IMG/VR virus record: IMGVR_UViG_3300044846_002555
Span: 1 to 64,000 of that record
Reading direction: 5' to 3' (one strand)
Length of the DNA stretch: 64,000 nt
Source of the DNA: a virus
The notes under the pieces were generated by a model. It saw nothing but the letters and a program-made list of their open reading frames with translations, did no database searches and was not told where the DNA came from. Position 1 is the first letter of the stretch. Each line of letters opens with the position of its first letter. This document shows positions 1,610 through 14,561 of this stretch, in pieces. A program made the translations under genes and the position numbers.

Positions 1610-1640
1610 AAAACCCTCACTTAACGTGGGGGTTTTTTTT
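1610..1640. terminator. Rho-independent terminator between convergent genes
   Basis: Stem aaccctcac / gtgggggtt (one T-G wobble) with loop ttaac, followed on the plus strand by eight T (1633-1640). It lies between the fibre stop (1604) and the stop of the minus-strand operon (1639). The minus-strand side has a shorter T run, so it may act in both directions. Confidence 0.85.
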
Positions 1641-2514
1641 ATTGTTGGTCAATAGCGTCAACTATTTTCTGAATGTCAAATACTTCGTATAAGTCATTAT
1701 AAGGTATACTACTTATGTCTTGGAATAATAGATATTTAGAATAATGAGGATGATTCAAATCAGGTTTTTTTGTTGGTTCATTTGCAATAATATTATTATG
1801 GATATCAAAACCAAATACTTTAGGGTTAGTCCCAACCCAAGTAACGACAGATGGTAAGTTTAAAGCCGTGGCGATGTGCATTACACTACTATCAATTAAT
1901 AATCTTTTTGTTGACATACTTAATAACACCGCGATACTTCTGAAAGAATCTAATGCTTGAAATGTATTTTCATAGATTATTTGGTCTTCTCTTTTAACGT
2001 GTAATATAGCATAATCTTTAGCATAATGATTAATAATGTCTTGCATTATTGGTTGGGGAATATCTCTTGTCCAACTATATTTTAAAGGTTGATTAAACGC
2101 TCCCCCGTGTGGTTGAATAACCATAATTGGTTTGTCTAATTTATAGAACGATTCAAAATATTGTCTTTCGGCTTTAGTAATAAACAACTCCGGTTTTTCT
2201 CCATCATAATTTAAACCATACATTTCACACCATAACTGAATAAGATGTTTTTCTTCGGTGATATAACTTGATGTTGTGTATGGGTCTGTAACAAATACTT
2301 TAGATTCTTTACCCATAATATATTTTTCATATATTCCACTCATTGTTTCATGAGTTAATACTTTATTAACATTTGGATTACCGATGAAAACATCCGGATA
2401 ACTACTAACAACAATTATATTTGCTTTACTATATTGTTTTTTTATAGCTTTTAATACTGCGGTCGCCATGATATTCTTACCAAGTCCCCCATCTATTTGA
2501 AAAATTACATTCAT
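1639..2514 (-). CDS. Glycosyltransferase family 9 (heptosyltransferase-like)
   Basis: 291 residues, GT-B fold glycosyltransferase of the ADP-heptose:LPS heptosyltransferase type. The N-terminus MNVIFQIDGGLGKNIMATA is the usual glycine-rich first strand-loop. The C-terminal half has MVIQPHGGAF, then LLSMSTKRLLIDSSVMHIATALN, equivalent to the family's 'D(S/T)G..HlA' nucleotide-sugar segment with S in place of T/G. It is the last gene of the minus-strand operon, 1 bp after the DUF2061 gene. The sugar donor cannot be read from sequence. The gene presumably adds a sugar to a virion or host-surface glycan made by this operon. Confidence 0.75.
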   Translation of the reverse strand: MNVIFQIDGGLGKNIMATAVLKAIKKQYSKANIIVVSSYPDVFIGNPNVNKVLTHETMSGIYEKYIMGKESKVFVTDPYTTSSYITEEKHLIQLWCEMYGLNYDGEKPELFITKAERQYFESFYKLDKPIMVIQPHGGAFNQPLKYSWTRDIPQPIMQDIINHYAKDYAILHVKREDQIIYENTFQALDSFRSIAVLLSMSTKRLLIDSSVMHIATALNLPSVVTWVGTNPKVFGFDIHNNIIANEPTKKPDLNHPHYSKYLLFQDISSIPYNDLYEVFDIQKIVDAIDQQ

Positions 2515-2515
2515 A

Positions 2516-2734
2516 TTATTCTTTATTTTCTTTTAATCCAAATTTTATCCATTTATACCACACTCTTTCGTGTAGAAAATATATTAATGGTTTTATACAT
2601 AATTCTGTCAATCCAATACTACCTGAAACTAAAAAATTACCTGTAAATAGGTAAGAGATTATACAGGTTTGTAATGTCCCTAACATTCTATAACTTATGG
2701 CTTTACCTACGTGTCTTTTAACTTCTACTTTCAT
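2516..2734 (-). CDS. DUF2061 small membrane protein
   Basis: 72 residues matching the DUF2061 pattern: KRHVGKAISYRMLGT near the N-terminus, then two hydrophobic segments (about residues 20-38 and 40-56), then HERVWYKWIKFG. Function is unknown. In bacteria and cyanophages this family is often found beside sulfate-activation genes, and here an APS kinase and a sulfotransferase lie 0.6-1.9 kb upstream in the same operon. The start codon shares a base with the stop of the preceding gene (2734), so the two are translationally coupled. It would act in the inner membrane. Confidence 0.8.
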   Translation of the reverse strand: MKVEVKRHVGKAISYRMLGTLQTCIISYLFTGNFLVSGSIGLTELCIKPLIYFLHERVWYKWIKFGLKENKE

Positions 2735-2967
2735 TATCTAACAATTACTACATCACCTTTCCAAATCACCTCATTTGCGGTGCAGCTAAGGTGGTGTTTA
2801 TCCACATCTGTGTTTCTTGATGGGTCATAGACAATATCTCTTGTTGTATGGGGAGGTATTTCAAAAATTACATTTGATGCAACGTTTTCAACACCATCAA
2901 TTAATATTCTCCAAAACAAGTGATTATCATCACAAAGTGTATTATATCTTAATTTAACATCAATCAT
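2734..2967 (-). CDS. Small conserved phage protein, unknown function
   Basis: 77 residues, no known domain. It looks like an all-beta protein: NHLFWRILIDGVENVASNV, then PPHTTRDIVYDP, then HLSCTANEVIWKGDVVIVR. Proteins with this general layout (R.LIDGVE...; HxSC near the end) occur in cyanophages beside sugar genes, from memory only. The start overlaps the stop of the nucleotidyltransferase gene by 4 bp and the stop abuts the DUF2061 start, so it belongs to the sulfation-like block. No transmembrane segment or signal peptide. Confidence 0.6.
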   Translation of the reverse strand: MIDVKLRYNTLCDDNHLFWRILIDGVENVASNVIFEIPPHTTRDIVYDPSRNTDVDKHHLSCTANEVIWKGDVVIVR

Positions 2968-3374
2968 AACTTACCTTCTTTTTTCATTTGTTCTCTAATC
3001 TTTGTTGCAGATATATCGTGAATTTCTTGTGGTGGAATATGTTCAATAATATCATATCCAACGCCTCTACCAAACTCAATTGAACAAATATCAGGAATAA
3101 CCATAACTTTAACTCTTTCTTCTTCTGAATAAAAGTTTGAGATGTTCTCTCTAACTTGTTCTGCAGTAAACGGATTTTTCTCGTCCGGTTGTATATCTCT
3201 AATACAGATTAAAACATTCTTACCTTCATCCATTGCTCTTTTAAACAATTCTTGGTGACCCAAATGTAATGGTTGCCATCTACCAACAAACATTGCGAAT
3301 TGACCATCCTTTGATGGTAATGATGAACCTACATGTATTTTTTTACTCCAATTTTCCATTTGTTTTAAATTCAT
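2964..3374 (-). CDS. HxGH nucleotidyltransferase (NMNAT / cytidylyltransferase-like)
   Basis: 136 residues. The nucleotidyltransferase signature FVGRWQPLHLGH (residues 29-40) holds the HxGH motif at 37-40, and ISATKIR (121-127) is the second conserved motif of the superfamily. The pattern GRxQPxHxGH is closest to NadM-type nicotinamide-nucleotide adenylyltransferases and cytidylyltransferases; ATP sulfurylase shares the fold. The gene overlaps the APS kinase gene by 32 bp. Context suggests a role in making an activated sugar, or possibly in sulfate activation, but the substrate cannot be fixed. A second in-frame ATG at 3359 (MENWSKK) is an alternative start, still within the overlap. Confidence 0.75.
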   Translation of the reverse strand: MNLKQMENWSKKIHVGSSLPSKDGQFAMFVGRWQPLHLGHQELFKRAMDEGKNVLICIRDIQPDEKNPFTAEQVRENISNFYSEEERVKVMVIPDICSIEFGRGVGYDIIEHIPPQEIHDISATKIREQMKKEGKL

Positions 3375-3801
3375 TAATTTTATTAATAATGTTACCTAAC
3401 GATTTTTGTTCGGCAACATTTGTTGTGTTTACATCCACAAAGTTTTCTGTTGGTGGTTCATAATTGGAAACATGATAATCTTCTCTACCTCTAATATCTT
3501 CGGTATGAACATAAAACTCTAAAACATTATGTTTGTTTTTAAATTCATCACGTTGGTCTTTATAAGGTGATACTAATGAAACTATCACATCAAATCCTTT
3601 TGAATCTAAAAATAATGAAATGTCTTGTGCTTTCTCAATATTTTTTCTTCTTCCTACTTCAGAGTAATCTTTATTTTGAAAGACATCTCTAATATCATCA
3701 CCATCAACAAGTATTGTATTACTTGGGTGTAGATAATCTTTAAGTTGTTTTGCTAATGTGGTCTTACCTGCTCCGGGTTGACCTGTAAACCAATATATCA
3801 T
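3343..3801 (-). CDS. cysC: Adenylylsulfate kinase-like protein (CysC family)
   Basis: 152 residues. P-loop GQPGAGKTT at 7-15, then VDGDDIRD at 32-39 (the APS-kinase DGD(N/D)xR element), then GRRKNIEKAQ and VIVSLVSPYKDQRD, all characteristic of CysC. The family makes PAPS from APS and ATP. The protein is shorter than the usual ~190-200 residues, and the C-terminal part (REDYHVSNYEPP) keeps the YEPP segment. It sits 12 bp after the sulfotransferase gene, which would use PAPS, and overlaps the nucleotidyltransferase. Shorter phage versions are known; a broader nucleoside or sugar kinase activity cannot be excluded. Confidence 0.8.
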   Translation of the reverse strand: MIYWFTGQPGAGKTTLAKQLKDYLHPSNTILVDGDDIRDVFQNKDYSEVGRRKNIEKAQDISLFLDSKGFDVIVSLVSPYKDQRDEFKNKHNVLEFYVHTEDIRGREDYHVSNYEPPTENFVDVNTTNVAEQKSLGNIINKINEFKTNGKLE

Positions 3802-3813
3802 AATTAAAATTTT

Positions 3814-4632
3814 TTATACATATCCAAAATAATCATAAAACCATTTATAATGATTTTTAATGTTCATTGATATCTCATACCCCAACACTTCCATATAATC
3901 ATCCGGTTTTCTTTCAAATTTAGGTCTTAATTGATGGTCACCAAATATCCCATGTACTCTATCATCTTCATGAGTTAATTGAGATATATTCTCAAAGTCG
4001 TGTCCTTCATAATATGGAATTCCCAAATATTCATATATCCTTGTCATTTCGTCTACCGGATTATCCATTAAATCTTCATAACGAATAAATAACATTTTAT
4101 TATCAATGTTTTGTTGAATGATATCTTGTAATCTATCAATTGCAACACCAACAGGAATACCACTAGCCCAAATATCAACACGTTTATTTAAAGTTGTTCC
4201 AACTAATTGAGCCGGATTTTGAATACCATTTTCTCTATGAGGATTTTTACGGAAATTTTTTTCCATAGAAGAATAGATGGCTCTGATGTCTCTAACCATA
4301 CAAATTATTTTTGGTTCATCTTGTAACATTTCTATTAAACCATAGTTAATTCCCCACTCTCTACTTTTATCCATAACGATTGGTTTATCAGTTAATCGTT
4401 TAAAATAACCTTGCATTCCATCTTTACAAAAATCAACAAATGCTTTGGTCATTTCATCTTGGTCTTGTGCTTGAAATGCTTGTGAATGATTATAGTTATT
4501 TTTACAGGCAATTACAAAATCTACCAAACCTGATGTTGGTGTTGAATAAATTTCAGGGTTTTGTGCTAACAAATTCTGTATTAGTGTGCTTCCACTTCTT
4601 GGTAGAGATGAGTTAAAAAATATTTTCTTCAT
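3814..4632 (-). CDS. PAPS-dependent sulfotransferase
   Basis: 272 residues. The 5'-phosphosulfate loop is LPRSGSTLIQNLL (10-22). The 3'-phosphate-binding element is CMVRDIRAIYSSM (111-123), with Arg114 and Ser121/122 in the expected places. IRYEDLMDNP in the second half is also typical of carbohydrate and protein sulfotransferases. Reaction: transfer of sulfate from PAPS to a hydroxyl or amine. With the APS kinase directly downstream (12 bp), this gives the last two steps of sulfation. The acceptor is unknown; the surrounding glycosyltransferases point to a glycan. Confidence 0.85.
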   Translation of the reverse strand: MKKIFFNSSLPRSGSTLIQNLLAQNPEIYSTPTSGLVDFVIACKNNYNHSQAFQAQDQDEMTKAFVDFCKDGMQGYFKRLTDKPIVMDKSREWGINYGLIEMLQDEPKIICMVRDIRAIYSSMEKNFRKNPHRENGIQNPAQLVGTTLNKRVDIWASGIPVGVAIDRLQDIIQQNIDNKMLFIRYEDLMDNPVDEMTRIYEYLGIPYYEGHDFENISQLTHEDDRVHGIFGDHQLRPKFERKPDDYMEVLGYEISMNIKNHYKWFYDYFGYV

Positions 4633-4636
4633 TTTA

Positions 4637-5314
4637 TTAAATGTTATCTATGTATATTATTATTTCTGTGTAATGTTTTAAAAAATTATCAGACATTAAA
4701 TTCCATTTAATATTAACACCATCAATTGAGTAGACCTCAAAATTTACAAAATATTGTAGGTAAGTGTCTCTAAATTTTTTAAATTTTTCGTTTAAAATAG
4801 GTCCACCTAAATGCCATTCTCCAACAATTTTTTTAACATTGTTTTTAATAAATTCAAAATTTTCATCATTGAATATATCATATTCACCACCCTCACAATC
4901 GGTCTTTAAAAAATCTATGGTTTCTAAATTATATAATTCGCAAAGTTTTTTAAATGTAATCCCTTCCATTTGTTTTGTCCCACCATATATGTAATCACAA
5001 TCGGTATATGTATTCGTATTGGAAACACCTTTTAATATAGGTGTTACCGGATAACCAATCGTATTCTTAACTAATGTAGGAAATTCATGTTCACTTGGTT
5101 CAAGACAATATACATGTTTTGGTTTTTTAGATAAAATACTATACGTAAATGGGCCAACACTGGCACCAAAATCTAATACAATATCCCCTTCAGATACCTC
5201 AAAAAATTTTTCATATATTTTATCGATAAATGTTTCTCTGGTTATAAGTTCTTTATGAGAGAGACCTTCTTCGGTTTGCTCCATCCATCCCCAATCAAAA
5301 TCGTTTAATTTCAT
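4637..5314 (-). CDS. FkbM-family SAM methyltransferase
   Basis: 225 residues. SAM-binding motif I is DIVLDFGASVGPFTYSI with the acidic end of strand 2 in YCLEPSE. Strand 4 is FLKTDCEGGEYDIF, the DCEGxE signature of FkbM-type O-methyltransferases. A C-terminal EWHLGG matches the conserved 'E.H' region. The family methylates sugar hydroxyls, often terminating or decorating polysaccharides. The start overlaps the end of the preceding gene by 4 bp. One of three FkbM modules in the operon (also 8145-9035 and the C-terminus of 10880-13996). Confidence 0.85.
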   Translation of the reverse strand: MKLNDFDWGWMEQTEEGLSHKELITRETFIDKIYEKFFEVSEGDIVLDFGASVGPFTYSILSKKPKHVYCLEPSEHEFPTLVKNTIGYPVTPILKGVSNTNTYTDCDYIYGGTKQMEGITFKKLCELYNLETIDFLKTDCEGGEYDIFNDENFEFIKNNVKKIVGEWHLGGPILNEKFKKFRDTYLQYFVNFEVYSIDGVNIKWNLMSDNFLKHYTEIIIYIDNI

Positions 5315-6483
5315 TTTATTAAATCTTGTATTTGGTCAATAACCATTTTAGAGGTTATTGATTTATGACATTCAAATTGTTTTTTAGTTCCTTTATTTAT
5401 TGGACACCAATTCCAATCTCCTTTATCAAATGTGTATTCGGGATTGTTCCAACATCCATTACATGAGTTTTTGTTGATAATTCTGGTACAATTAATAATA
5501 AACTCATGGTCCGGTAAAGTAAAGTTTGATATCATCACAACATTTTTATTTAACGCCCATGATAACCAAGATAGTCCACTTGACAGTCCAATAAAGAAAT
5601 CACTATGGTGAATAACATTCATTGTATTTCCTAATGAATCATCTTTAAGATTCTCAACACCTTTATAGGTGTCACCATTTTTTGAAACATTAATGACTTT
5701 ATATCCTTTATCTATTAGATATTTAACTAATTCGGACCAACCTGATGGGTTATTCCATAATTTACACCCAGCAGTTGAATTAGTAGCTATTGTAATATAT
5801 TTTTCTTTATAAGGTCGTTCAATAGGTTCAAAATCAATGTGTGTTTTAATTTCTTTATGTTCCAAACCTAATATATTAGTTATGGTTTTTTGTAATGGGA
5901 TTGTTGCCGGATTTACGGGTTCTAATGAATCATTATAAAACCACCCTACTTTAAACATTGCGTGAATATTATTAACAACTTGACCAGGTTTAACGAATTG
6001 TAAATTTGGATATGATTTTTCAAATAAATGATTTAAAAATGTTGAAACAACCACTTCACAATCATGTTTCTTTCTAAACTCATCACAATAAGGAATCCAA
6101 GAGATGGTGTCACCTAATGAAGAGGATTCAAACGTTATAAAAACTTTTTTACCTTTAAATGAAATTGTCTCTTCTTTAATAATAAAAGAACCTTTAGAAA
6201 TTCTATATTTAATACCATTAAAATATTGTCTATATGTTCGACAGAACATATTGTTACTTAATTTACTTTTATATAATAAAACGTCATTATTGTCAAATAT
6301 TTCAACATCAAACTCTTCATTAGTGTTAGATTTTAAATTTAAATAAAATCCATTAACATGAGACCACTCAACACTGACATTTATTTCATCACCAAAAGAT
6401 TCAATATATTGTTTTGTAAACTCGTTGTTTGTTGGTGAGGTAACATCAAACTCACTATCATTAATTTTAATTATGTTCATCAT
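5311..6483 (-). CDS. TibC/AAH-like protein O-heptosyltransferase with Cys4 metal finger
   Basis: 390 residues. An N-terminal beta-rich domain (to ~110) precedes a GT-B domain starting at KVFITFESSSLGDTISWIPY. Family features are TNSTAGCKLWNNPSGW, HHSDFFIGLSSGLSWLSWAL and a C-terminal cysteine finger at C341, C344, C360 and C372, ending FECHKSI. This matches autotransporter heptosyltransferases (TibC, AAH, BAHT), which put heptose on Ser of adhesin repeats and hold iron in a four-Cys finger. The phage target would be a protein or a glycan; this window encodes Ser/Thr-rich repeat proteins. Start codon: MMN at 6483, in a row of tightly packed genes (gap 4 bp). Confidence 0.8.
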   Translation of the reverse strand: MMNIIKINDSEFDVTSPTNNEFTKQYIESFGDEINVSVEWSHVNGFYLNLKSNTNEEFDVEIFDNNDVLLYKSKLSNNMFCRTYRQYFNGIKYRISKGSFIIKEETISFKGKKVFITFESSSLGDTISWIPYCDEFRKKHDCEVVVSTFLNHLFEKSYPNLQFVKPGQVVNNIHAMFKVGWFYNDSLEPVNPATIPLQKTITNILGLEHKEIKTHIDFEPIERPYKEKYITIATNSTAGCKLWNNPSGWSELVKYLIDKGYKVINVSKNGDTYKGVENLKDDSLGNTMNVIHHSDFFIGLSSGLSWLSWALNKNVVMISNFTLPDHEFIINCTRIINKNSCNGCWNNPEYTFDKGDWNWCPINKGTKKQFECHKSITSKMVIDQIQDLIK

Positions 6484-6487
6484 TATA

Positions 6488-7132
6488 TTATTTTGTAAAT
6501 ATAGTTATACTATCCGTACCATCCCAATTACTTAATGGATTAAATTTTATGGTTTTTTGTTCAACAATTTTCATATTATGTTTTTCAACCAAAGATTTAA
6601 ATAAATCAGGGTTCATATCTGCTCTACCGGCAATATTTTTAAATGAATAATCATTACCTAAATATAACCATGAATGGTGAATATATGATTTACCACCGGG
6701 TTTTAAAACTCGATATATTTCTTTTAGATAATCATCAATAACGTTTTTGTGTATGTGAACAAAAGAATCGTATGAAAATACTAAATCTTGACTATCATCA
6801 CTAATTTGTGTTAAATCATTCCCATTGTTAACAAAATATTCTGACACATGGTGTCCTAATTTTTCTCTTGTTTTATTTATACAATTTTCATTTAAATCAA
6901 TAACAATTAGTTTGGATGCCAAAATTGAAAGAAATTGAGTTATTCTACCATAACCGGGAGCAATCTCTAATATTTTTTTACCTCTAAATTCTTTAATATC
7001 ATCAAAGATATAATTATTCCAAAGATTTTCTGTGGTGCCAAAAGATTTTGACCATTCATGTCCATCATTCTCCCACATTTTTTCGTCATTCCACAATCTT
7101 TGTTCGTCTATGTTTTTAAATTTTTCTTCCAT
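6488..7132 (-). CDS. Class I SAM methyltransferase
   Basis: 214 residues. Motif I is KKILEIAPGYGRITQFL, followed by LIVIDLNENCI (acidic end of strand 2), FSYDSFVHI (motif III region) and EIYRVLKPGGKSYIHHS (post-motif), all of the Methyltransf_11/25 type. The acceptor is unknown. It lies inside the glycan operon, 42 bp downstream of the next upstream gene. Small-molecule sugar methylation (O- or N-methyl on a nucleotide sugar) is a reasonable guess from context only. Confidence 0.8.
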   Translation of the reverse strand: MEEKFKNIDEQRLWNDEKMWENDGHEWSKSFGTTENLWNNYIFDDIKEFRGKKILEIAPGYGRITQFLSILASKLIVIDLNENCINKTREKLGHHVSEYFVNNGNDLTQISDDSQDLVFSYDSFVHIHKNVIDDYLKEIYRVLKPGGKSYIHHSWLYLGNDYSFKNIAGRADMNPDLFKSLVEKHNMKIVEQKTIKFNPLSNWDGTDSITIFTK

Positions 7133-7174
7133 GTTGTAATTTTAGTTGATATTTTTAAATTGTGTAATTTTAAA

Positions 7175-8143
7175 TTAATTTATTTTAGGTTGTTCTAATT
7201 CTGTTAAGTTTAATACACGAAGTAGAGTGTTACAATCATTAAATAAATCTCCCGTTAAAAAATGTATATTTTTAGTGTTATCGTATTTATCCAAATAAGT
7301 TTCTAAATTAAACATTAATGTTGGTTTTTCATACTCTAAACTTTCTTTAATTGATATTGGATTAAGTTCTAATCTTGATGTAAATAAATGTACGTCGCAA
7401 GATTGGATAAATAAATCAACATCATTTCTTTCCCCCCAAATAATACAATTATTAGGTTTATCCTCTATTATTGGTTCCCAATAATCTTTAAAGTTGCTGG
7501 CTTGATTACCAATAAAATGAAACGTTATTTCGTATCTTTCTAACATTCTCGCGATTTCAAAGGCATACCCTTGATTTTTACCCCAAGTGAATAAACCAAT
7601 ATTGATTATGTGTTTATAATTTGGGTCTAATCCTAATTTAATAATGTTATCGATTTTATTTGGTTGTTTAATCTCTATAGGATATTCAATTAAATCCATT
7701 GGTACACCCAATTCTTCAAAAACTTTCAATGAGTAAGGCGATACAAAAATGAATTTATCAGGTAAAAACCTTTTCCAATCAGGCATAGAGTGGGAACTAT
7801 GTGTGGTTTCAAATATTTTATAAGTCCTATTTTTATCATATAACCGTTCCATAATTTCAGTTGACATAAATGTTTCTGAAAATTCTTCAATCATAATGTG
7901 TGGTGAATCATGGTTATCAATTAGTTCAAACAATTCCGTTTCTTTATCTTCATTCAATGTTATAAATTTATCCCCAATCATGTTTATAACATTATTTCTT
8001 TGAACAATATAATTCCACGCAACACATTCCCATTCTACAACTATTACGTTATAAACATCTTTAAGTAGTTCAACTTTTTTAGATACCACTTGAGGGCATC
8101 CACCTGTTGACATATGTGGTGTAATTATTAATAATGTTTTCAT
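7175..8143 (-). CDS. Glycosyltransferase, GT4-like
   Basis: 322 residues, GT-B fold. The N-terminus MKTLLIITPHMSTGGCPQVV is the typical GT4 glycine-rich start. The C-terminal domain holds KHIINIGLFTWGKNQGYAFEIAR, and then DVHLFTSRLELNPISIKESLEYEKP, an E-x7-E-like donor-binding segment (ELNPISIKE). No signal peptide. It probably extends a glycan chain. Neighbours are an FkbM methyltransferase (1 bp upstream) and a SAM methyltransferase (42 bp downstream). Confidence 0.75.
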   Translation of the reverse strand: MKTLLIITPHMSTGGCPQVVSKKVELLKDVYNVIVVEWECVAWNYIVQRNNVINMIGDKFITLNEDKETELFELIDNHDSPHIMIEEFSETFMSTEIMERLYDKNRTYKIFETTHSSHSMPDWKRFLPDKFIFVSPYSLKVFEELGVPMDLIEYPIEIKQPNKIDNIIKLGLDPNYKHIINIGLFTWGKNQGYAFEIARMLERYEITFHFIGNQASNFKDYWEPIIEDKPNNCIIWGERNDVDLFIQSCDVHLFTSRLELNPISIKESLEYEKPTLMFNLETYLDKYDNTKNIHFLTGDLFNDCNTLLRVLNLTELEQPKIN

Positions 8144-8144
8144 T

Positions 8145-9035
8145 TTATTCTAAAAAGGAGAATGAATTCCAAAAATCGTATTTGACTTTATAACCATTCA
8201 TTTTTAACCAATCAAAAAGTTTATCAATCCTTTCACTACTACCTGTTCTTTCTTCACAAAAATTTATAGTTTCAAAAACGATTAATTTTGGTTTGACGAC
8301 TTTACTAAAATCTAATGACATTATAATTTCGTCATCAATAGCTTCAGTGTCTAAATGTAACCAATCTAAAGTATCTTGTAAATTTTCTTGTATAATTAAA
8401 TCATTAATACTTATTGAATCCACATTAACAACAACAATTTCTTCATTATCAAATACGTGTTTTTTACAATGAGTTTCACTTAATGTGTTTGTATAACCAT
8501 CTCCGAATTCATAAAAGTTAACATTACCACCATTACCGGTTATAACATTGTTTCTAAATGAAACATTATTAAAATTTGAATAATTTTGTGTTAATTCATC
8601 AAATTGTTTTTTGGATGCCTCAACTAAAACTGCGTAAGTTGAGTTATTTTTTACGTGTTTAACCCATTCTCCGGATGTACCATCATGAGTGCCTATTGCA
8701 ATACCTTTTGTATTTGGATTTTTTTTAATCCACGTCTCAAAAAATTGTTCAGTGGCATTTCGATTAACCCAAACATCGTATTTAAATTCGGATATAATTT
8801 CATCATGTTTATTTTTAATTACCACAACAAAATTATCGTTATTAACTGTATCCCAAGATGCCCACATATTGGGATAAAGATTCGTTGACCAAATAATTTT
8901 ACCACCACCTGAAACTTCAAATATAAAAGGAAGTTCATTTTCATTATATAACCAAGAGACCTCTTCGTAAACTTTACCCAAAACTTTTCCATTTGGTGCT
9001 TCCTCACTTTTTTCAATATATTTAAGTTCAAACAT
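8145..9035 (-). CDS. FkbM-family methyltransferase with N-terminal beta domain
   Basis: 296 residues. Residues 1-~85 form a beta-rich domain (KYIEKSEEAPNGKVLGKVY, SWLYNENELPFIFEVSGGGK) that resembles the non-catalytic beta domains seen before the GT-B domain in 5311-6483 and before the FkbM part of 10880-13996. The methyltransferase follows: KGIAIGTHDGTSGEW (motif I), YAVLVEASKKQFDELT, and DWLHLDTEAIDDEIIMSL with the DxEaiD signature of FkbM. Probably methylates a sugar. It is 1 bp from the downstream GT4 gene and 2 bp from the upstream GT34-like gene. Confidence 0.75.
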   Translation of the reverse strand: MFELKYIEKSEEAPNGKVLGKVYEEVSWLYNENELPFIFEVSGGGKIIWSTNLYPNMWASWDTVNNDNFVVVIKNKHDEIISEFKYDVWVNRNATEQFFETWIKKNPNTKGIAIGTHDGTSGEWVKHVKNNSTYAVLVEASKKQFDELTQNYSNFNNVSFRNNVITGNGGNVNFYEFGDGYTNTLSETHCKKHVFDNEEIVVVNVDSISINDLIIQENLQDTLDWLHLDTEAIDDEIIMSLDFSKVVKPKLIVFETINFCEERTGSSERIDKLFDWLKMNGYKVKYDFWNSFSFLE

Positions 9036-9037
9036 TA

Positions 9038-9724
9038 TTATAATACTTTTTTAATTCTATTTAATTTACTTGGTGTGTCACCACCCGCGTGATACACATA
9101 ATTTATTATACCGTCTTCCCAATATCTATGATAAGAAAATGGTAATACCCTAATATTACCTAATAATAAAGGATATTCAATATCAACAGTATTTTTATTT
9201 AAAATGTTTTCACCACCATTAATTTTAAAATTATCATAAATTAATTCATCTAATCTTGATTGTTCATGAAAAAATTCAAATTTAAATTGTTTTGGGGAGT
9301 CCCATAAAGTGTTTAAAATATTGTTTGACCATTCACTATTTTTCCATATCATAAATCCGGTTGTTGTGTGGGTCCACATATTACCACTAACTCTGTCTAC
9401 CTCAAGTTTAGGGATAACTAAATCAACATCATCAGTTATCATATCTTCAATTTTAATATTTTGATTAACAAATACTGCGTCAGCATCTATCCACACAACA
9501 TAATCAAATAATGGTAAATACTTTTTAAGTACGTCTATCTTTATCCAAGTTGGGTGCCAATCAGAATAATCATCGTTTTTAACTATTTCCTTAATATATG
9601 AGTATCCGTGTTTATTGGAATATTCATGATGATTTATTGAAGATAAATCTCCATAATCACATTTTCCATAGTTTTCCCATCTAATGTGGTCAGTGTACGA
9701 TGTTAAAATACATATTTTACTCAT
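9038..9724 (-). CDS. GT34-like galactosyl/xylosyltransferase (GMA12/MNN10 type)
   Basis: 228 residues, GT-A fold. The N-terminus KICILTSYTDHIRWENYG leads into NHHEYSNKHGYSYI and then WHPTWIKIDVLKKYLPLFDYVVWIDADAVF. The WIDADA segment holds the metal-binding DxD, and the run 'H..Y...HGY.y....W.K...l...l..ydyv.W.D.DA' is the pattern of the GMA12/MNN10 family. The later TGFMIWKNSEWS is the conserved acceptor-side segment. Predicted to transfer a hexose or pentose from a nucleotide sugar. Packed between the GT2 and FkbM genes. Confidence 0.8.
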   Translation of the reverse strand: MSKICILTSYTDHIRWENYGKCDYGDLSSINHHEYSNKHGYSYIKEIVKNDDYSDWHPTWIKIDVLKKYLPLFDYVVWIDADAVFVNQNIKIEDMITDDVDLVIPKLEVDRVSGNMWTHTTTGFMIWKNSEWSNNILNTLWDSPKQFKFEFFHEQSRLDELIYDNFKINGGENILNKNTVDIEYPLLLGNIRVLPFSYHRYWEDGIINYVYHAGGDTPSKLNRIKKVL

Positions 9725-9725
9725 A

Positions 9726-10877
9726 TTAATTTTTGATTATAAAATGTCTGATATATGTCCACCAACTAAATCCATAGTAACGACTTATAACTGGTGTATA
9801 TTTGTTTAATTGTTTTTCTAATTCTTCATCTTTATCTTCATTAGATAAATGATAATTTTGGTTTTGATAATAAAATAAAACTTTACCACCTTTAATTTTT
9901 TGAAGTATTTTTTCTAAAACATTTTCGTTAAGATTATTAAGTGAAAATAAGTGGATATCCGATTCAGGATTATTAAATGTTAGTGTAACATCATAATATA
10001 ATTTCTGTAAAACTTCCTGTTGACCTTTAGATATATTTCTAGACCATAATGATACGTTTTTATTTTGTAATTCTCCAATAGGGTAGGACCCTAAAGTAGA
10101 GGTTTCAATATACAATTCATTAAATCTACTATCAATACCACCGTCACTTAAATTTAATTTATTTAATGCAATATCAAAATTTGCGTTAAAATTATGTGGG
10201 ACAATTTTTCTGTGGGATTCGGAATCTTCTCGTAAATACCACTTATATAAAGGTCTTGGTATATGCAGATATTTCCCAAATGAATTTGACCAAAATACGT
10301 GATAACTATCTTCAGCACCCGCCAACACATCTGTTAATTCAAACTTATCTATGATATTTTTAAACGCCCTTAAATGACCAAAACAACTATAACTTATATT
10401 ATTTAGATAATCACATGATGGGTGATAATTATTAATTTTGTTAGAGATTATATCATTATTTAAGATATATGAGATTGAATGTAATGAACCACTATCTTCA
10501 TATAATTTAAAGTAATCTGACGACACTAAAGACACATCATTGTTGTTTTCTAAAAATGAGTTATAAACATTTAAAAAGTTTTTATCAAAATCATCATCAG
10601 CATCGACTAAAACAATCCAATCAAAAGTTTTATCAAAAAATTCTTGAGGATTCCAATACATTTGTTTTTTTTCAGATTGTTCATAATATTTTATTTTATG
10701 TTTTAAAATACTATTTTCTAATCGGTTTAAGACTATGTCTTTAGTGTTGTCACTTGAAAAATCGTCAGTAATGTGCCATTCAAAATTATCATAATCTATT
10801 TGTTCGATAGAATTAAATATTCTATCAACAAATCTTTCACAATTATAAAAGGTGGTGTATATTCCAAATTTTAACAT
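9726..10877 (-). CDS. GT2-family glycosyltransferase
   Basis: 383 residues. The N-terminal GT-A domain has KFGIYTTFYNCERFVDRIFNSI, then WHITDDFSSDNTKDIV and DWIVLVDADDDFDKNFL; VDADDD carries the DxD metal motif of GT2. The C-terminal ~150 residues (from about NISKGQQEVLQKLYY) are not recognised and end in a basic, aromatic tail. It uses a nucleotide sugar and adds it to a glycan acceptor; donor and acceptor unknown. It is 2 bp from the genes on either side or less. Confidence 0.8.
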   Translation of the reverse strand: MLKFGIYTTFYNCERFVDRIFNSIEQIDYDNFEWHITDDFSSDNTKDIVLNRLENSILKHKIKYYEQSEKKQMYWNPQEFFDKTFDWIVLVDADDDFDKNFLNVYNSFLENNNDVSLVSSDYFKLYEDSGSLHSISYILNNDIISNKINNYHPSCDYLNNISYSCFGHLRAFKNIIDKFELTDVLAGAEDSYHVFWSNSFGKYLHIPRPLYKWYLREDSESHRKIVPHNFNANFDIALNKLNLSDGGIDSRFNELYIETSTLGSYPIGELQNKNVSLWSRNISKGQQEVLQKLYYDVTLTFNNPESDIHLFSLNNLNENVLEKILQKIKGGKVLFYYQNQNYHLSNEDKDEELEKQLNKYTPVISRYYGFSWWTYIRHFIIKN

Positions 10878-10879
10878 AA

Positions 10880-13800
10880 CTAATTTAAATTTTTAGCAAA
10901 AATCATATTATCTTTAATTTTAACATCAAAATTGTTTTTTAATAAAACACTAACCACTAACTCTAATATTTCTTCACTATGTGTCTCAATACAATATCGT
11001 TTTATTTTTTTTAAATTTTTAGACGTTATTGTTTTAAAAATATCGTATTCAGAACCTTCACAATCTATTTTGCAATAATTAATTGTGTCATCAATTTCAT
11101 TGATAAGGGTATTAATATTAATGGATTCAACAATAATTTCATCACCGGTGTTATTAAGTAAATCATTATAAGTTGACACACAATTTCTTGCGGAAACATC
11201 ATCACATAATGTCATTGTAATTTCACCATCTTCAACACTAACTGCTTTATTAATTGGTGTTATTGGAAATTCTTTAGATAATTCTAAAATATGATTAAAT
11301 GGTTTTTTTAATGGTTCAACACAATATGTTTTTTTAGCTCCTTTATCCAGTGAGTAAAGAGAGAAAAATCCATAATTACCACCAATGTCTAAAACAACAT
11401 CATCTTTTTGAACATTAAATTCATCATCATATTCATAATCTTTATTTATGAATATCTCCCAATAAGTTGAATAATTATTATCTTCTAAATTTTCAAATTT
11501 ATATTCTTTATCACCTATTGTTAGTTTGTTATCCCCATTGATAATCATTTTTTTATAACCAAAAAATTCACCATCTAAATATAGGTTTATAATAATATTA
11601 CCTAAACCGTTTAAACGACCCGGACTTGGTGCCCACCAATTTATTCCGTTATAGTTTCTTTTCGCAACATCAAAAAAGTTGTCTCTTTTTAAACCTGTGT
11701 TAACATCAATCACCTCCATTTTTATTGGGAGTTCCGTGTCAACTTTATAATTAAAGTGTATTTTATTTAAATCGTCTTTTTTAAACAATTCAACAATGGT
11801 GTCAAATTTATTAACATTTTCCGAGTTCAAAACTTTACTAATGTTTTCTTTAACCCGGTCAACAGATGGATGACACTCAAAAGTTGATTTCTTCTCTAAA
11901 CACCCTGGCATTGGTGGAACGGCATTAATGTGTCCCCACTCTTTAACATTATACGATAAATTTGAATTACAAAATATATTACAAGTTCCTCCAACATATG
12001 TATAGTTATATTCTTGAGTCCCATATCTATATGGTGCTCTAAATGATGGATGTATCGCGCTACCTAATTGTAATATATGGGTATTCGTACATCCTGCTAA
12101 ATGTAAAGGCCCGGAATCCATTGTTACAATACATTTAGAGTTATTAATTACCCACCACATATCACTCATCGTCCCTTGATTGGTTAAATCTAAACCATAA
12201 AGATTTTCAAAAACAGGACAGTATTTTTCTAATGTATCACCTAACGAATGATGTAATTTTTCTCTATAACCTGACCCTATTAAAACAGTATAAATTTTGT
12301 TTTCACGAAGCCAATCAATTAATTCTGTCCAATTTTTATCATTCCAAGTTCTGTTCGCCCAATTTGTTGTTACGTGTAATACAACATACTCTTTAGGTAA
12401 GTCAATATCTAATTCTAATGATGTTGGATAAAAATCATAACTCAATTGTTCTGGTAAAAGTTGGAATCCTAAATCATTAGCGTGTAATTGACGAGTATCA
12501 ATATGTGAGAATTTTTTCTCAATACCATTCTTATCAAAAGTTCCGGGAAACGTAAAACTTTCATATATTCTTGAGTTTGATGTATCAATTAAATTGTATT
12601 CGTCAAATGAAAGTAAATTATCAACATAAGGGTTTCCTCTAAATACAACTTTACTATGTGTCACAACATTGATTTTTTCATTATGTGATTGAGAAAGATA
12701 TCGTAAAGTTGGTGTTGACGCTAACGTATCTCCAAAACTACTACTGTGAATTAAATAATATATGTTTGACATTGTAATTGATTTTTTTTTAGTATTATAA
12801 CTTTCTAAAATTTTATTTGCTTTCTCAGTAACATAGTCCCAATTAAAATTTTTCTGAATATATTGTGAATCTAATAATGATTTATTGTTATATTCTGAGA
12901 GTTTATTTAATTTATATTGTGTATAAAATTTCATAACTTCATACTCAAATTGAGTATAATTTGGTTCTGATAATTTACCAGGGTAATAGTCATGTAGTAA
13001 CTCCCAAAAATATTCTTGGTTGTTTATTATTAATTTTCTTTGAGCGTCTTCTTCTCCTACAATCTCAATACCAATACCTATTGAGTTTTCAGTATATTCT
13101 AATTGACCTGTTGATTTACTGTAAATGGATGGCACACCTGAAGATAATGATTGAATTAACGGAAGATTCCAACCCTCACCGCGTGAACAAGAAACATATA
13201 AATTTGCATTTCTAATTTCATTAATATAATCCTCTTCACTTAATGTATCCAAAAATGTGATGTTATTATATTGAGGTAAACCATATTTTGTAAACAATTC
13301 ATCTTGTGATTCCTGTTCTCGATATTTGTCATGTATTGCTAATTTAAATTCAACTGAGGGGTCATCACCAATTACATTAGTAATTGACTTTATTAATTCG
13401 TAAGATGATTTACGATATTCCCAAGTACCAATATGTAGTATTGTTAGTTTTTTATTTTTTTTATTTTTAACGGGAAAAAATTTGGATGGGTCAACACCCT
13501 CATTAACAACAGTTATTTTATTTCTATCTATTCCATTATTAACAAAAACCTCTAATTGCCATTTACTTGGAACCCATATATAATCAACTTTTTTAAGTTT
13601 TTCAATAAAACCTTCTAACATTTCTGTAGTTTCCCAAGGGAAGTAAGCAATAACTGGTTTATCGTAATCTTGATAATAATAATGATGATACGCTTCGGCC
13701 ATTATAAGGTGAAAATCGGGAACAAATGATTCGTCATATCCTAATAGTGGAAATTCTTTTAACTCACCATCTACCCATAAACTTTGTTGATGTAATAATT

Positions 13801-13996
13801 GATGGTGAATATCCTCTAAACCTTTAGTGTTTTTATACATATCAGGACCACTATAAAAACCATTCCAAGTATTAGTATCTAAATTGAAGTTTCTTATCTT
13901 AACATTATGGTATTTGTTTAGATTTTTACTAAATTCTTTAATATGATGTGCAATACCACCAGGTCCCATCATTGAGCCGTGAATTAATATATTCAT
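10880..13996 (-). CDS. Three-domain fusion: GT4 + TibC-like GT + FkbM methyltransferase
   Basis: 1038 residues. Domain 1 (1-~400) is GT4: PGGIAHHIKEF near the start, ILHIGTWEYRKS, and SRGEGWNLPLIQSLSSG (E274 of E-x7-E). Domain 2 (~409-745) starts at an internal Met409 (MSNIYYLIHSSSFGDTLAS) and is TibC/GT9-like: HVTTNWANRTWNDKNW, VTMDSGPLHLAGC, and a cysteine finger at C672, C676, C699 and C708 ending FECHPS. Domain 3 (~850-1038) is FkbM: VVLDIGGNYGFFSLYS, YCVEPLK and YCKIDCEGSEYDIF, preceded by a beta domain. The protein could add two sugars and a terminal methyl group in one polypeptide. Met409 could also be an internal translation start. Confidence 0.85.
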   Translation of the reverse strand: MNILIHGSMMGPGGIAHHIKEFSKNLNKYHNVKIRNFNLDTNTWNGFYSGPDMYKNTKGLEDIHHQLLHQQSLWVDGELKEFPLLGYDESFVPDFHLIMAEAYHHYYYQDYDKPVIAYFPWETTEMLEGFIEKLKKVDYIWVPSKWQLEVFVNNGIDRNKITVVNEGVDPSKFFPVKNKKNKKLTILHIGTWEYRKSSYELIKSITNVIGDDPSVEFKLAIHDKYREQESQDELFTKYGLPQYNNITFLDTLSEEDYINEIRNANLYVSCSRGEGWNLPLIQSLSSGVPSIYSKSTGQLEYTENSIGIGIEIVGEEDAQRKLIINNQEYFWELLHDYYPGKLSEPNYTQFEYEVMKFYTQYKLNKLSEYNNKSLLDSQYIQKNFNWDYVTEKANKILESYNTKKKSITMSNIYYLIHSSSFGDTLASTPTLRYLSQSHNEKINVVTHSKVVFRGNPYVDNLLSFDEYNLIDTSNSRIYESFTFPGTFDKNGIEKKFSHIDTRQLHANDLGFQLLPEQLSYDFYPTSLELDIDLPKEYVVLHVTTNWANRTWNDKNWTELIDWLRENKIYTVLIGSGYREKLHHSLGDTLEKYCPVFENLYGLDLTNQGTMSDMWWVINNSKCIVTMDSGPLHLAGCTNTHILQLGSAIHPSFRAPYRYGTQEYNYTYVGGTCNIFCNSNLSYNVKEWGHINAVPPMPGCLEKKSTFECHPSVDRVKENISKVLNSENVNKFDTIVELFKKDDLNKIHFNYKVDTELPIKMEVIDVNTGLKRDNFFDVAKRNYNGINWWAPSPGRLNGLGNIIINLYLDGEFFGYKKMIINGDNKLTIGDKEYKFENLEDNNYSTYWEIFINKDYEYDDEFNVQKDDVVLDIGGNYGFFSLYSLDKGAKKTYCVEPLKKPFNHILELSKEFPITPINKAVSVEDGEITMTLCDDVSARNCVSTYNDLLNNTGDEIIVESININTLINEIDDTINYCKIDCEGSEYDIFKTITSKNLKKIKRYCIETHSEEILELVVSVLLKNNFDVKIKDNMIFAKNLN

Positions 13997-14000
13997 AAAA

Positions 14001-14561
14001 TTATTTTTTAATTACCCAACTTGAATCAGGGTATCTCGTAATTGAATGTGTTTTACCAAAATAGTCATTTACTGCATATAAAACATCAATATTCTCTAAA
14101 TAATCATGACCGGATAAATAACCACCTTTTTTAATTTTTGGTAACCACGTATTAATATCGTTTATTACATCATCATACCAATGAGACGCATCAATATAAA
14201 CAAGGTCAAAATGTTCATCAGGAAACATTTTAGAGGCCTCATCACCCCTCATATGTATTTTATTAATGTGAGAATAAAATGATTTCATATTATCAAACAA
14301 TTCCATAGCTTGGAAAATAATACCATCATTATTCCAATCTTCCCAAGTATCGATGCAGTATATTTTTTCACAATGTAATGCTAAAACTTCACTACTAACA
14401 CCGGCATACGAACCAATTTCAGCAACAACAAAATTATCTTTCATAATATCTTCACACATCATGAACAAACCTTGAGTCCTATTAACACCACCTTCATCAT
14501 CTTTTAAACCAAACATTCTATAGGCCGTTTTTAAATATTCTCGTCTATTATCAATATTCAT
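14001..14561 (-). CDS. Class I SAM methyltransferase (first gene of the glycan operon)
   Basis: 186 residues. FVVAEIGSYAGVSSEVLALH is motif I, IYCIDTWEDW the end of strand 2, FDLVYIDASHWYDDVINDI the motif IV region (Methyltransf_24 type, DASHxYxxV), and KKGGYLSGHDY the post-motif. Similar enzymes include sugar O-methyltransferases such as macrocin-type and CmcI-like. It is the 5'-most gene of the 14-gene minus-strand operon, and its promoter must lie in the 108 bp gap to 14670. It is 4 bp from the next gene. Confidence 0.8.
   Translation of the reverse strand: MNIDNRREYLKTAYRMFGLKDDEGGVNRTQGLFMMCEDIMKDNFVVAEIGSYAGVSSEVLALHCEKIYCIDTWEDWNNDGIIFQAMELFDNMKSFYSHINKIHMRGDEASKMFPDEHFDLVYIDASHWYDDVINDINTWLPKIKKGGYLSGHDYLENIDVLYAVNDYFGKTHSITRYPDSSWVIKK

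Follow-up and report, generated by a model that had tools for sequence, protein, structure and literature searches.

The window analysed here is a 64,000-nucleotide stretch of viral DNA (positions 1 to 64,000 of IMG/VR record IMGVR_UViG_3300044846_002555), and includes a cassette of small genes with a predicted role in sulfation, embedded in a long operon on the minus strand. All of the cassette ORFs were confirmed on this strand by an ORF check, and are listed here in order of transcription together with the flanking parts of the operon.

4637..14561, minus strand: upstream part of the operon, with genes for glycosyltransferases and methyltransferases
3814..4632, minus strand: ST, putative sulfotransferase, 272 aa
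3343..3801, minus strand: KIN, short-lid kinase of the APS-kinase fold, 152 aa, predicted to convert APS to PAPS
2964..3374, minus strand: NT, HxGH nucleotidyltransferase, 136 aa, with the signature GRxVGY; a predicted minimal, non-orthologous ATP sulfurylase
2734..2967, minus strand: P77, a 77-aa protein without a named family
2516..2734, minus strand: DUF2061, a small membrane protein (Pfam DUF2061, 6.6e-19)
1639..2514, minus strand: GT9-like glycosyltransferase (Glyco_transf_9, 5.6e-5), the last gene of the operon

The genes are compactly organized, with a 12 bp gap between ST and KIN and overlaps of 32 bp (KIN/NT), 4 bp (NT/P77) and 1 bp (P77/DUF2061), in agreement with the adjacent and overlapping genes of a preliminary description of this locus. 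The identities proposed there (sulfotransferase, CysC-like kinase, HxGH nucleotidyltransferase and DUF2061) are upheld by Pfam and by motif columns: ST, KIN and DUF2061 score above their Pfam cut-offs and NT above that of CTP_transf_like, and the loss of catalytic residues that would have counted against them is not seen on alignment, the active-site columns being invariant or nearly so. P77 is a fifth cassette ORF, absent from that description. The upstream part of the operon codes for FkbM-like and other methyltransferases, GT9, GT4-like, GT34 and GT2 glycosyltransferases, and a 1038-aa protein combining GT4, GT9 and FkbM domains; judging from this gene context, the product of these genes is the likely sulfate acceptor. 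A GT9-like gene is found in 54 of the 59 groups recovered by a scan with ST.

ST is an intact, predicted PAPS-dependent sulfotransferase, matching both Sulfotransfer_3 (PF13469; 70.5 bits, cut-off 27, 3.2e-19) and Sulfotransfer_1 (PF00685; 56.3 bits, cut-off 22, 4e-15), and its relatives in Synechococcus phages are annotated as sulfotransferases. The SSLPRSGST loop and R114...S122, which we take to bind the 5' and 3' phosphates of PAPS, are both present, as had been claimed, and P11, R12, G14, S15, T16, R114 and S122 are invariant or nearly so in 51 dereplicated relatives. Sulfotransferases of the same Sulfotransfer_3-type family occur in the marine phages S-SKS1, S-SRM01 and S-SCSM1 and in OM43 phages, but in the part of the source available these are reported without a PAPS-making partner, whereas the ST of the window adjoins activation genes (PMC10580990).

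KIN was initially described as a short CysC-like kinase with a P-loop, and this fits its match to Pfam APS_kinase (PF01583; 60.6 bits, cut-off 21.1, 2.3e-16) and the conservation of G12 and K13, although it misses the cut-off of the NCBIfam apsK equivalog-domain model (64.4 vs 138.7 bits). The structure model (pLDDT 95.7) aligns best with APS kinases and PAPS synthetases, which fill the best 29 VIA-align rows (Z 20.7–16.7; first row 7yq1, Z 20.7, rmsd 2.1 over 148), the next fold being gluconate kinase (Z 16.6). G12, K13, D35, R38, R51 and R84 are invariant or nearly so in 100 dereplicated relatives, with D35, R38 and R51, the aspartate and two arginines that hold APS, present in all of them; these were mapped by eye onto the APS contacts given in the portion available of a description of APS kinase (PMC4373884). 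KIN thus retains the fold, P-loop, DGDxxR motif and second arginine of APS kinase (CysC), but its lid is about 20 residues shorter, with R-G-R in place of the KGLY motif of the full lid. The lid lysine or arginine and the second stacking phenylalanine expected of a full lid are not found, and the FTG segment is absent; known APS kinases have a much longer lid, and the residues there that hold APS and ATP are accordingly altered in KIN.

NT matches Pfam CTP_transf_like (33.7 bits, cut-off 21, 4.8e-8) and has both the HxGH and ISxTxxR nucleotidyltransferase motifs, with H37, H40, S122, T124 and R127 invariant, which bears out its original designation as an HxGH nucleotidyltransferase; including G102 and R103, seven columns show little or no variation across 85 dereplicated relatives. 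Its best solved-structure profile match is an NMNAT (E 3.4e-9), and its model aligns with PPAT (Z 10.0, rmsd 3.0 over 113); the best 50 VIA-align rows are all PPAT or NMNAT, and the absence of Sat from these rows excludes nothing. NT falls short of the cut-offs for ATP-sulfurylase (PF01747; 20.5 vs 24.3 bits, 3.4e-4) and for the NMN adenylyltransferase equivalog (NCBIfam TIGR01527; 31.6 vs 181.2 bits). Compared with five Sat proteins, NT lacks the motifs QxRNPxHxxH and GRDHAG and has GRWQPLHLGH and GRGVGY instead, and a profile comparison with Sat is weak (41% probability), aligning the C-terminal part alone. The order of motifs in Sat, HxxH followed by GRD and then S(G/A)TxxR, is nevertheless also shown by NT. 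Its predicted reaction is that of CysD/CysN and Sat, from which it differs in size, in failing the PF01747 cut-off and motifs, and in a mostly complementary distribution among genomes.

In cellular genomes, NT adjoins a full-lid APS kinase in marine Bacteroidetes, and is fused to APS kinase at seven loci in the order APSK-NT (L335, L351, L380, L384, L387, L388 and L389) and at one in the opposite order (NT-APSK, L383). Full-lid and short-lid kinase partners interchange in the NT tree, which used every second phage row and in which L379, scored short-lid by script, had been set to full-lid by hand from its sequence before the tree. Three Nitrospirota loci (L330, L331 and L333) have the gene order sulfite reductase, APS reductase and NT, and in Dadabacteria an APS reductase gene lies beside a PHO4-family permease gene, with neither Sat nor CysD found; all six reductases tested, together with that of L330, score as APS reductases by the corresponding model and fall short of the one for PAPS reductase (TIGR02057). 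Since the partners of NT elsewhere are full-lid APS kinases and APS reductases, APS is indicated as its product.

The distribution of NT was compared with that of known sulfurylases in 49 genomes that contain it. APS kinase was found in 47 of these, the genomes having been chosen through 50 of 72 cellular loci, with preference for those with a kinase neighbour and with L362 dropping out of the 50; Sat is present in six, and CysD scores above cut-off in one, a weak CysD match in G036 (29 bits) that overlaps its own PAPS_reduct match being scored as absent. Of the 49, which are mostly MAGs or SAGs and are not phylogenetically independent, 42 yielded neither Sat nor CysD, with APS kinase present in 40 of the 42. 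The Fisher and hypergeometric statistics computed in this analysis take no account of phylogeny. The two genomes with NT in which APS kinase was not detected are G044, which has an APS-reductase gene, and G049. Among control relatives, CysD is present in all 67 genomes with a strong APS kinase match (of 149, G019 itself excluded) and a strong NT match in none, and Sulfotransfer_3 occurs in 39 of the 49 NT-containing genomes versus two of 14 controls. In the phylum of G045 (57 genomes), 32 have NT, eight have Sat, none has both and 17 have neither. Assembly gaps as the sole cause of the missing sulfurylases were rejected, given the presence of APS kinase in 47 of the same 49 genomes, and are also countered by G045, where the contig with NT is 1,590,246 bp long.

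ATP sulfurylase starts all sulfate use in cells. The best reading of NT is as a small NMNAT/PPAT-like nucleotidyltransferase that some bacteria would use instead of Sat or CysDN to supply APS kinase or APS reductase. From sequence comparisons, we think it probable that the cassette is a self-contained module for sulfate activation and sulfation, with NT acting as an ATP sulfurylase outside the family of that name and feeding KIN, and then ST. NT would convert sulfate and ATP to APS and pyrophosphate, and the phage would thus be independent of host ATP sulfurylase; KIN, from its family, fold and exchange of partners, would phosphorylate the 3'-OH of APS to give PAPS; and ST would transfer the sulfuryl group to the product of the adjacent glycosyltransferase/methyltransferase operon. 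The sulfated product could be a virion or a host glycan and, as first suggested, might mimic algal polysaccharide or mask receptors. The cassette would therefore run from sulfate and not from APS. The preliminary description had it turning APS into PAPS, which agrees with the predicted KIN step, but this starting point was probably too modest, as the comparative evidence suggests that NT makes the APS; its broader idea of a sulfation cassette is supported. A little more guardedly, we favor the view that NT represents a third, minimal class of ATP sulfurylase derived from NMNAT/PPAT-like nucleotidyltransferases. This class would stand in for Sat and CysDN in the bacteria with APSK-NT fusions, in Dadabacteria and in many marine Bacteroidota and Marinimicrobia; phages would spread it, pairing it with a short-lid APS kinase and a variety of sulfotransferases for glycan sulfation independent of host sulfate activation. 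No description of an ATP sulfurylase role for such a protein was found in the open-access literature searched, and the only match there for a novel or alternative ATP sulfurylase, as far as the excerpt available goes, concerned SAR11.

In the version first proposed, KIN would convert host-made APS to PAPS for ST, and NT, with no connection to this step, would serve the glycan operon as a nucleotidyltransferase for a sugar or cofactor. CTP_transf_like and NMNAT-type models do score NT above ATP-sulfurylase, and glycosyltransferase genes surround it, but we regard this as unlikely, as NT accompanies KIN or APS kinase even without the ST family of the window or glycosyltransferase neighbors, forms fusions with APS kinase in either order, and is present in the sulfite reductase/APS reductase operon.

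Comparison across related phages, suggested at the outset, shows the KIN-NT-DUF2061 trio to be conserved in many of them, often with ST adjacent. In 151 phage groups with both KIN and NT (group counts rest on clustering at 15% shared k-mers), the two genes are adjacent in 107 (overlapping in 94), 100–1500 bp apart in 39, fused in three, and otherwise arranged in two; KIN is present in 47 of the 48 groups from a scan with NT, and chance was rejected as the cause of this proximity. The ST scan found KIN in 48 of 59 loci, always on the same strand and within 1.5 kb in 40, which speaks against ST usually occurring without KIN. Among the 125 groups with KIN and NT for which ST was not the seed, 75 carry an ST or ST-like gene at most 6 kb from KIN (41 if window-type ST alone is counted), compared with none of 80 control loci anchored on ribonucleotide reductase, although the share of the 75 contributed by ST-like families A3 and A4 is not independent because both were found as KIN neighbors. 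A3 and A4 are weakly supported as putative sulfotransferases: A3 matches heparan sulfate 2-O-sulfotransferase (E 0.001), with Sulfotransfer_2 matches in two of 18 members (best 1.4e-4), and A4 has no PDB match and a single member with a Sulfotransfer_3 match below cut-off (E 0.0014). In the other 50 of the 125 groups no ST or ST-like gene was seen within 6 kb, and Sulfotransfer_3 was found in just five of 26 other KIN-containing records (21 without window-type ST in the locus and five others).

These associations bear on the proposal that viral cysC is an auxiliary metabolic gene boosting host assimilatory sulfate reduction, as set out in the parts available of two reports (PMC9529941, PMC10914622). 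Phage cysC and cysH are described as widespread, and phage cysC as transcribed (PMC10914622, in part), but we consider such a role for KIN doubtful, with no cysH relative detected by phmmer among the viral-locus ORFs examined or in the window, and with ST or ST-like genes near KIN as frequently as described above. It is more improbable still that NT is an NMN/NaMN adenylyltransferase or CoaD-like enzyme of cofactor supply, such as for NAD salvage in infection, with KIN as the accompanying kinase, in the manner of NadR-like pairs; NMNAT and PPAT are its best solved-structure matches and share its HxGH and ISxTxxR motifs, but NT scores far below the NMNAT equivalog cut-off, KIN groups with APS kinases, and in cells NT is partnered by APS kinases and APS reductases instead of NAD genes. 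Campylobacter phosphoramidate synthesis is a model for a PAPS-like donor of a non-sulfate group. The remodelled KIN lid and the lack of a recognised ST at many KIN loci would suit a scheme of this kind, with NT adenylylating another oxyanion or headgroup, KIN adding a 3'-phosphate and ST-like enzymes transferring the group, but the full-lid APS kinases and APS reductases that partner NT elsewhere make it the least likely of these alternatives.

Coupling of an APS-making nucleotidyltransferase to APS kinase, as predicted for NT, is reminiscent of bifunctional PAPS synthase (PAPSS) and bacterial Sat-APS kinase fusions, and the NT and APS kinase domains also form one chain in L335, L351 and L383. 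The sulfurylase part differs, being an NMNAT/PPAT-like domain of ~110–150 aa with GRxVGY and not a member of the Sat family, and the phage NT and KIN are encoded by separate, overlapping genes. The sulfated capsule cluster of Vibrio KMM 8419 similarly brings together genes for PAPS synthesis, sulfotransferases and glycosyltransferases, but, in the section of the source available, uses cysNDC where the phage uses NT and KIN (PMC11641403). If the proposed role of NT is correct, it would supply the step that sulfur metabolism otherwise lacks in several uncultured lineages, where no known ATP sulfurylase had been detected, and add a very small enzyme for a central reaction of sulfur chemistry; viral cysC would be reread from helping host sulfur assimilation to supplying PAPS for sulfation, and phage sulfotransferases would gain a matching donor supply.

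The remaining two cassette genes may be membrane accessories of the activation enzymes, and DUF2061 might serve as an anchor for the module or influence access to sulfate. P77 has no match in Pfam, PHROG or NCBIfam, and in other phages is fused with DUF2061 as one ORF in 39 of 144 DUF2061 groups. DUF2061 (PF09834; 68.5 bits, cut-off 23.1) had been noted as often linked to sulfate genes, and we find NT in 46 of the 48 groups from a DUF2061 scan, and DUF2061 fused N-terminally to a full-lid APS kinase at four cellular loci (L361, L377, L378 and L382).

The virus record that contains the window is 142,859 bp long, and other genes of the window code for helicases, ribonucleotide reductase, and a baseplate wedge protein. 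A run of glycosyltransferase and methyltransferase genes ends, in order, with a sulfotransferase (ST), a short-lid kinase of the APS-kinase fold (KIN), an HxGH nucleotidyltransferase (NT), a 77-aa protein (P77), the small membrane protein DUF2061, and a GT9-like gene.

14561 down to 1639, minus strand: glycosyltransferase and methyltransferase gene run, all on the same strand
3814-4632, minus strand: ST
3343-3801, minus strand: KIN
2964-3374, minus strand: NT
2734-2967, minus strand: P77
2516-2734, minus strand: DUF2061
1639-2514, minus strand: GT9-like gene

ST, KIN, and DUF2061 fall clearly within their Pfam families; NT is matched by a general nucleotidyltransferase model and narrowly misses the ATP-sulfurylase model, and profile searches gave no family match for P77, which is joined with DUF2061 as a single protein in 39 of 144 DUF2061 groups. 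Also within the run, a 1038-aa protein (10880-13996, minus strand) combines GT4-like, GT9-like, and FkbM methyltransferase domains. A long plus-strand protein at 1-1604, which seems to continue past the 5' end of the window, repeats motifs of the IGGG(x)N type and resembles a tail fibre or adhesin; its reading frame at 237-1604 has no PHROG match.

Dereplicated phage relatives show little or no variation at the positions expected for the active sites: the PAPS loop and R114/S122 in ST (n=51), the P-loop, D35, R38, and R51 in KIN (n=100), and GRxQxxHxGH, R59, P68, GRxVGY, and SxTxxR in NT (n=85). The accessible text on M. tuberculosis CysC (PMC4373884) lists Asp480, Arg483, Phe492, Arg497, and the lid residues Lys562 and Phe576 as APS contacts; mapped by eye, the first four correspond to KIN D35, R38, Y46, and R51, Lys562 falls near R104, and the counterpart of Phe576 is gone with the shortened lid, so that KIN keeps the core of the APS site with a remodelled lid. 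The KIN model (pLDDT 95.7) has APS kinases as its first structural matches (7yq1, Z 20.7, rmsd 2.1 over 148), and the top 29 consist entirely of APS kinases and PAPS synthetases, followed by gluconate kinase (Z 16.6). The NT model (pLDDT 88.8) resembles PPAT (Z 10.0, rmsd 3.0 over 113) and NMNAT (Z 9.5, rmsd 3.1 over 110), a common fold from which its substrate cannot be read.

Viral contigs were scanned separately with ST, KIN, NT, and DUF2061 and dereplicated into groups, the ST scan being made without KIN. KIN, NT, and DUF2061 recur together: KIN lies within 1.5 kb in 47/48 NT-scan groups, NT and DUF2061 accompany KIN in 56/58 and 55/58 KIN-scan groups, and NT and KIN accompany DUF2061 in 46/48 and 42/48. 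Among 151 groups with both KIN and NT, the two are adjacent in 107 (overlapping in 94), separated by 100-1500 bp in 39, fused in three, and otherwise placed in two. KIN was found in 48 of 59 ST-scan groups, 40 of these within 1.5 kb and all on the same strand. Of 125 groups whose seed was not ST, 75 have an ST or ST-like gene no farther than 6 kb from KIN (54 of 76 where both flanks reach at least 5 kb; 41 of 125 for window-type ST alone), and none of these families was found in 80 loci (970,991 bases) chosen around ribonucleotide reductase; as counter-evidence, only 5 of 26 further records with KIN contain Sulfotransfer_3. Two further ST-like families, with motifs PRCAST and GRAGST, occur in 27 of 84 ST-less KIN groups, about 3-5 kb from KIN (L014, L016, L019, L050, and other loci), and have weak support as sulfotransferases. 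KIN loci without ST often carry carbamoyltransferase, 2OG-Fe(II) oxygenase, and (by eye) halogenase-like flavoprotein genes, a hint that glycans or small molecules may be elaborately decorated.

L271:5390-7057, one of these genes
L295:9317-9910, one of these genes
L050:11157-11807, one of these genes
L016:10338-11588, one of these genes

Two viral loci (L261:8226-8990, L270:8218-8991) encode a divergent variant of the module, a one-chain kinase and NT of about 255 aa with NADEVR replacing DGDxxR and DUF2061 nearby. In three others (L114:1853-2815, L174:9746-10711, L175:7634-8599) NT is preceded in frame by an N-terminal region of about 185 aa that contains Cys-rich motifs and may be a homing-endonuclease-like insert.

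When the NT alignment was used to scan genome contigs, 72 cellular loci emerged, from records labelled as Bacteroidetes, Marinimicrobia, Dadabacteria, Nitrospiraceae, Acidobacteria, Chlamydiae, Omnitrophota, and others. Most Marinimicrobia loci have a short-lid kinase followed by NT, and in marine Bacteroidetes a canonical full-lid APS kinase adjoins NT or stands one gene away (apsK 260.7 bits against a cut-off of 138.7 in L345). Full-lid kinase and NT share one chain, kinase first, in seven loci and in reversed order in L383; DUF2061 is fused N-terminally to the full-lid kinase, with NT next, in L361, L377, L378, and L382, and a sulfotransferase-like gene follows in L378 (Sulfotransfer_3 5.8e-5, below cut-off). 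On an NT tree (90 rows, 122 columns) nine changes are required to place the partner labels full, short, and none, starred branches forcing at least six for 'full' and at least three for 'short'. Because the labels interchange, both kinase forms serve the same NT partner, which argues that short-lid KIN also uses APS. In one marine Bacteroidetes locus a second small nucleotidyltransferase (L347:7609-8007, CTP_transf_like 2e-9) lies between APS kinase and NT. A Crocinitomicaceae MAG (L319:383-4573) has KIN-NT-P77 and, behind it, genes for an ABC transporter ATPase and a Sulfotransfer_1-type protein; here the phage module sits in a polysaccharide-like locus of a cell.

NT also has APS reductase (CysH) as a partner. 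Three Nitrospirota loci (L330, L331, L333) have the order nitrite/sulfite reductase, CysH, NT (NIR_SIR confirmed in L330 and L331, PAPS_reduct in L330 and L333), and in Dadabacteria genomes G043-G046 a PHO4-family permease adjoins CysH (PHO4 confirmed where tested, L486 and L489), a pairing like that of the cysH-cysP operon in B. subtilis. The six reductases of one test set and that of L330 all satisfy TIGR02055 (235.3 bits), the model for APS reductases, and fall short of TIGR02057 (254.2 bits), the model for PAPS reductases; NT thus has two different APS consumers as partners, kinase and reductase, whose common need is APS.

Fifty of the 72 loci were taken, and 49 of them gave an NT-bearing genome to search, with APS kinase in 47 and Sulfotransfer_3 in 39 (2/14 in control genomes). 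Sat was found in six and CysD above cut-off in one, so 42 have neither known sulfurylase; 40 of these have APS kinase, the exceptions being G044, with an APS-reductase gene and NT, and G049, with weak PAPS_reduct similarity only. As control, 67 of 149 genomes from the family of G019 (itself left out) have a strong APS kinase match; CysD is above cut-off in all 67, which gave no strong NT match and five weak ones (20-23 bits). The contrast of 42/49 with 0/67 (Fisher P 1e-24) ignores shared ancestry and is indicative only. The same caution applies to the phylum of G045, where 57 genomes divide into 32 with NT, eight with Sat, none with both, and 17 with neither (hypergeometric P 6.5e-4). G045 has NT, on a 1,590,246-bp contig of a record labelled 'chromosome: 1', as well as APS kinase, CysH, and Sulfotransfer_3; neither Sat nor CysD was found.

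Against a sulfurylase role, Sat is kept in six of these genomes, NT satisfies neither the profile nor the motifs of the sulfurylase, NMNAT and PPAT stand nearest to it in both sequence and fold, and comparison with the Sat profile gives a weak match. The proposed mechanism is therefore drawn from gene context and distribution. Of the two Nitrospiraceae with Sat, the Sat sequence examined was that of G047, which has NT beside APS reductase; its Sat-APS kinase fusion (L495) reads QTRHPLHRVH and GWDYA where QTRNPxHRAH and GRDHAG are expected, and this Sat may be inactive or altered.

The preliminary description had seen a phage sulfation cassette that could turn APS into PAPS and sulfate an operon-made glycan. 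That observation is confirmed, and genes, motifs, conserved gene order, fusions, and distribution are all established here; its interpretation is partly supported, and we extend it with NT as candidate source of APS. NT would make APS, KIN would make PAPS, and ST would sulfate a product of the glycan operon, with DUF2061/P77 conceivably anchoring the activation enzymes at the membrane. Searches of open-access papers turned up no account in which this NT acts as a sulfurylase. Studies of Challenger Deep viruses (PMC9529941) and freshwater phages (PMC10914622) have described viral cysC as an auxiliary gene for assimilatory sulfate reduction, and their accessible portions mention no nucleotidyltransferase or sulfotransferase partner. 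Phage sulfotransferases have been reported with function termed 'unclear' (PMC10580990, accessible text), and a marine Vibrio, according to the available part of PMC11641403, produces a sulfated capsule by means of a gene cluster that combines cysNDC with sulfotransferases.
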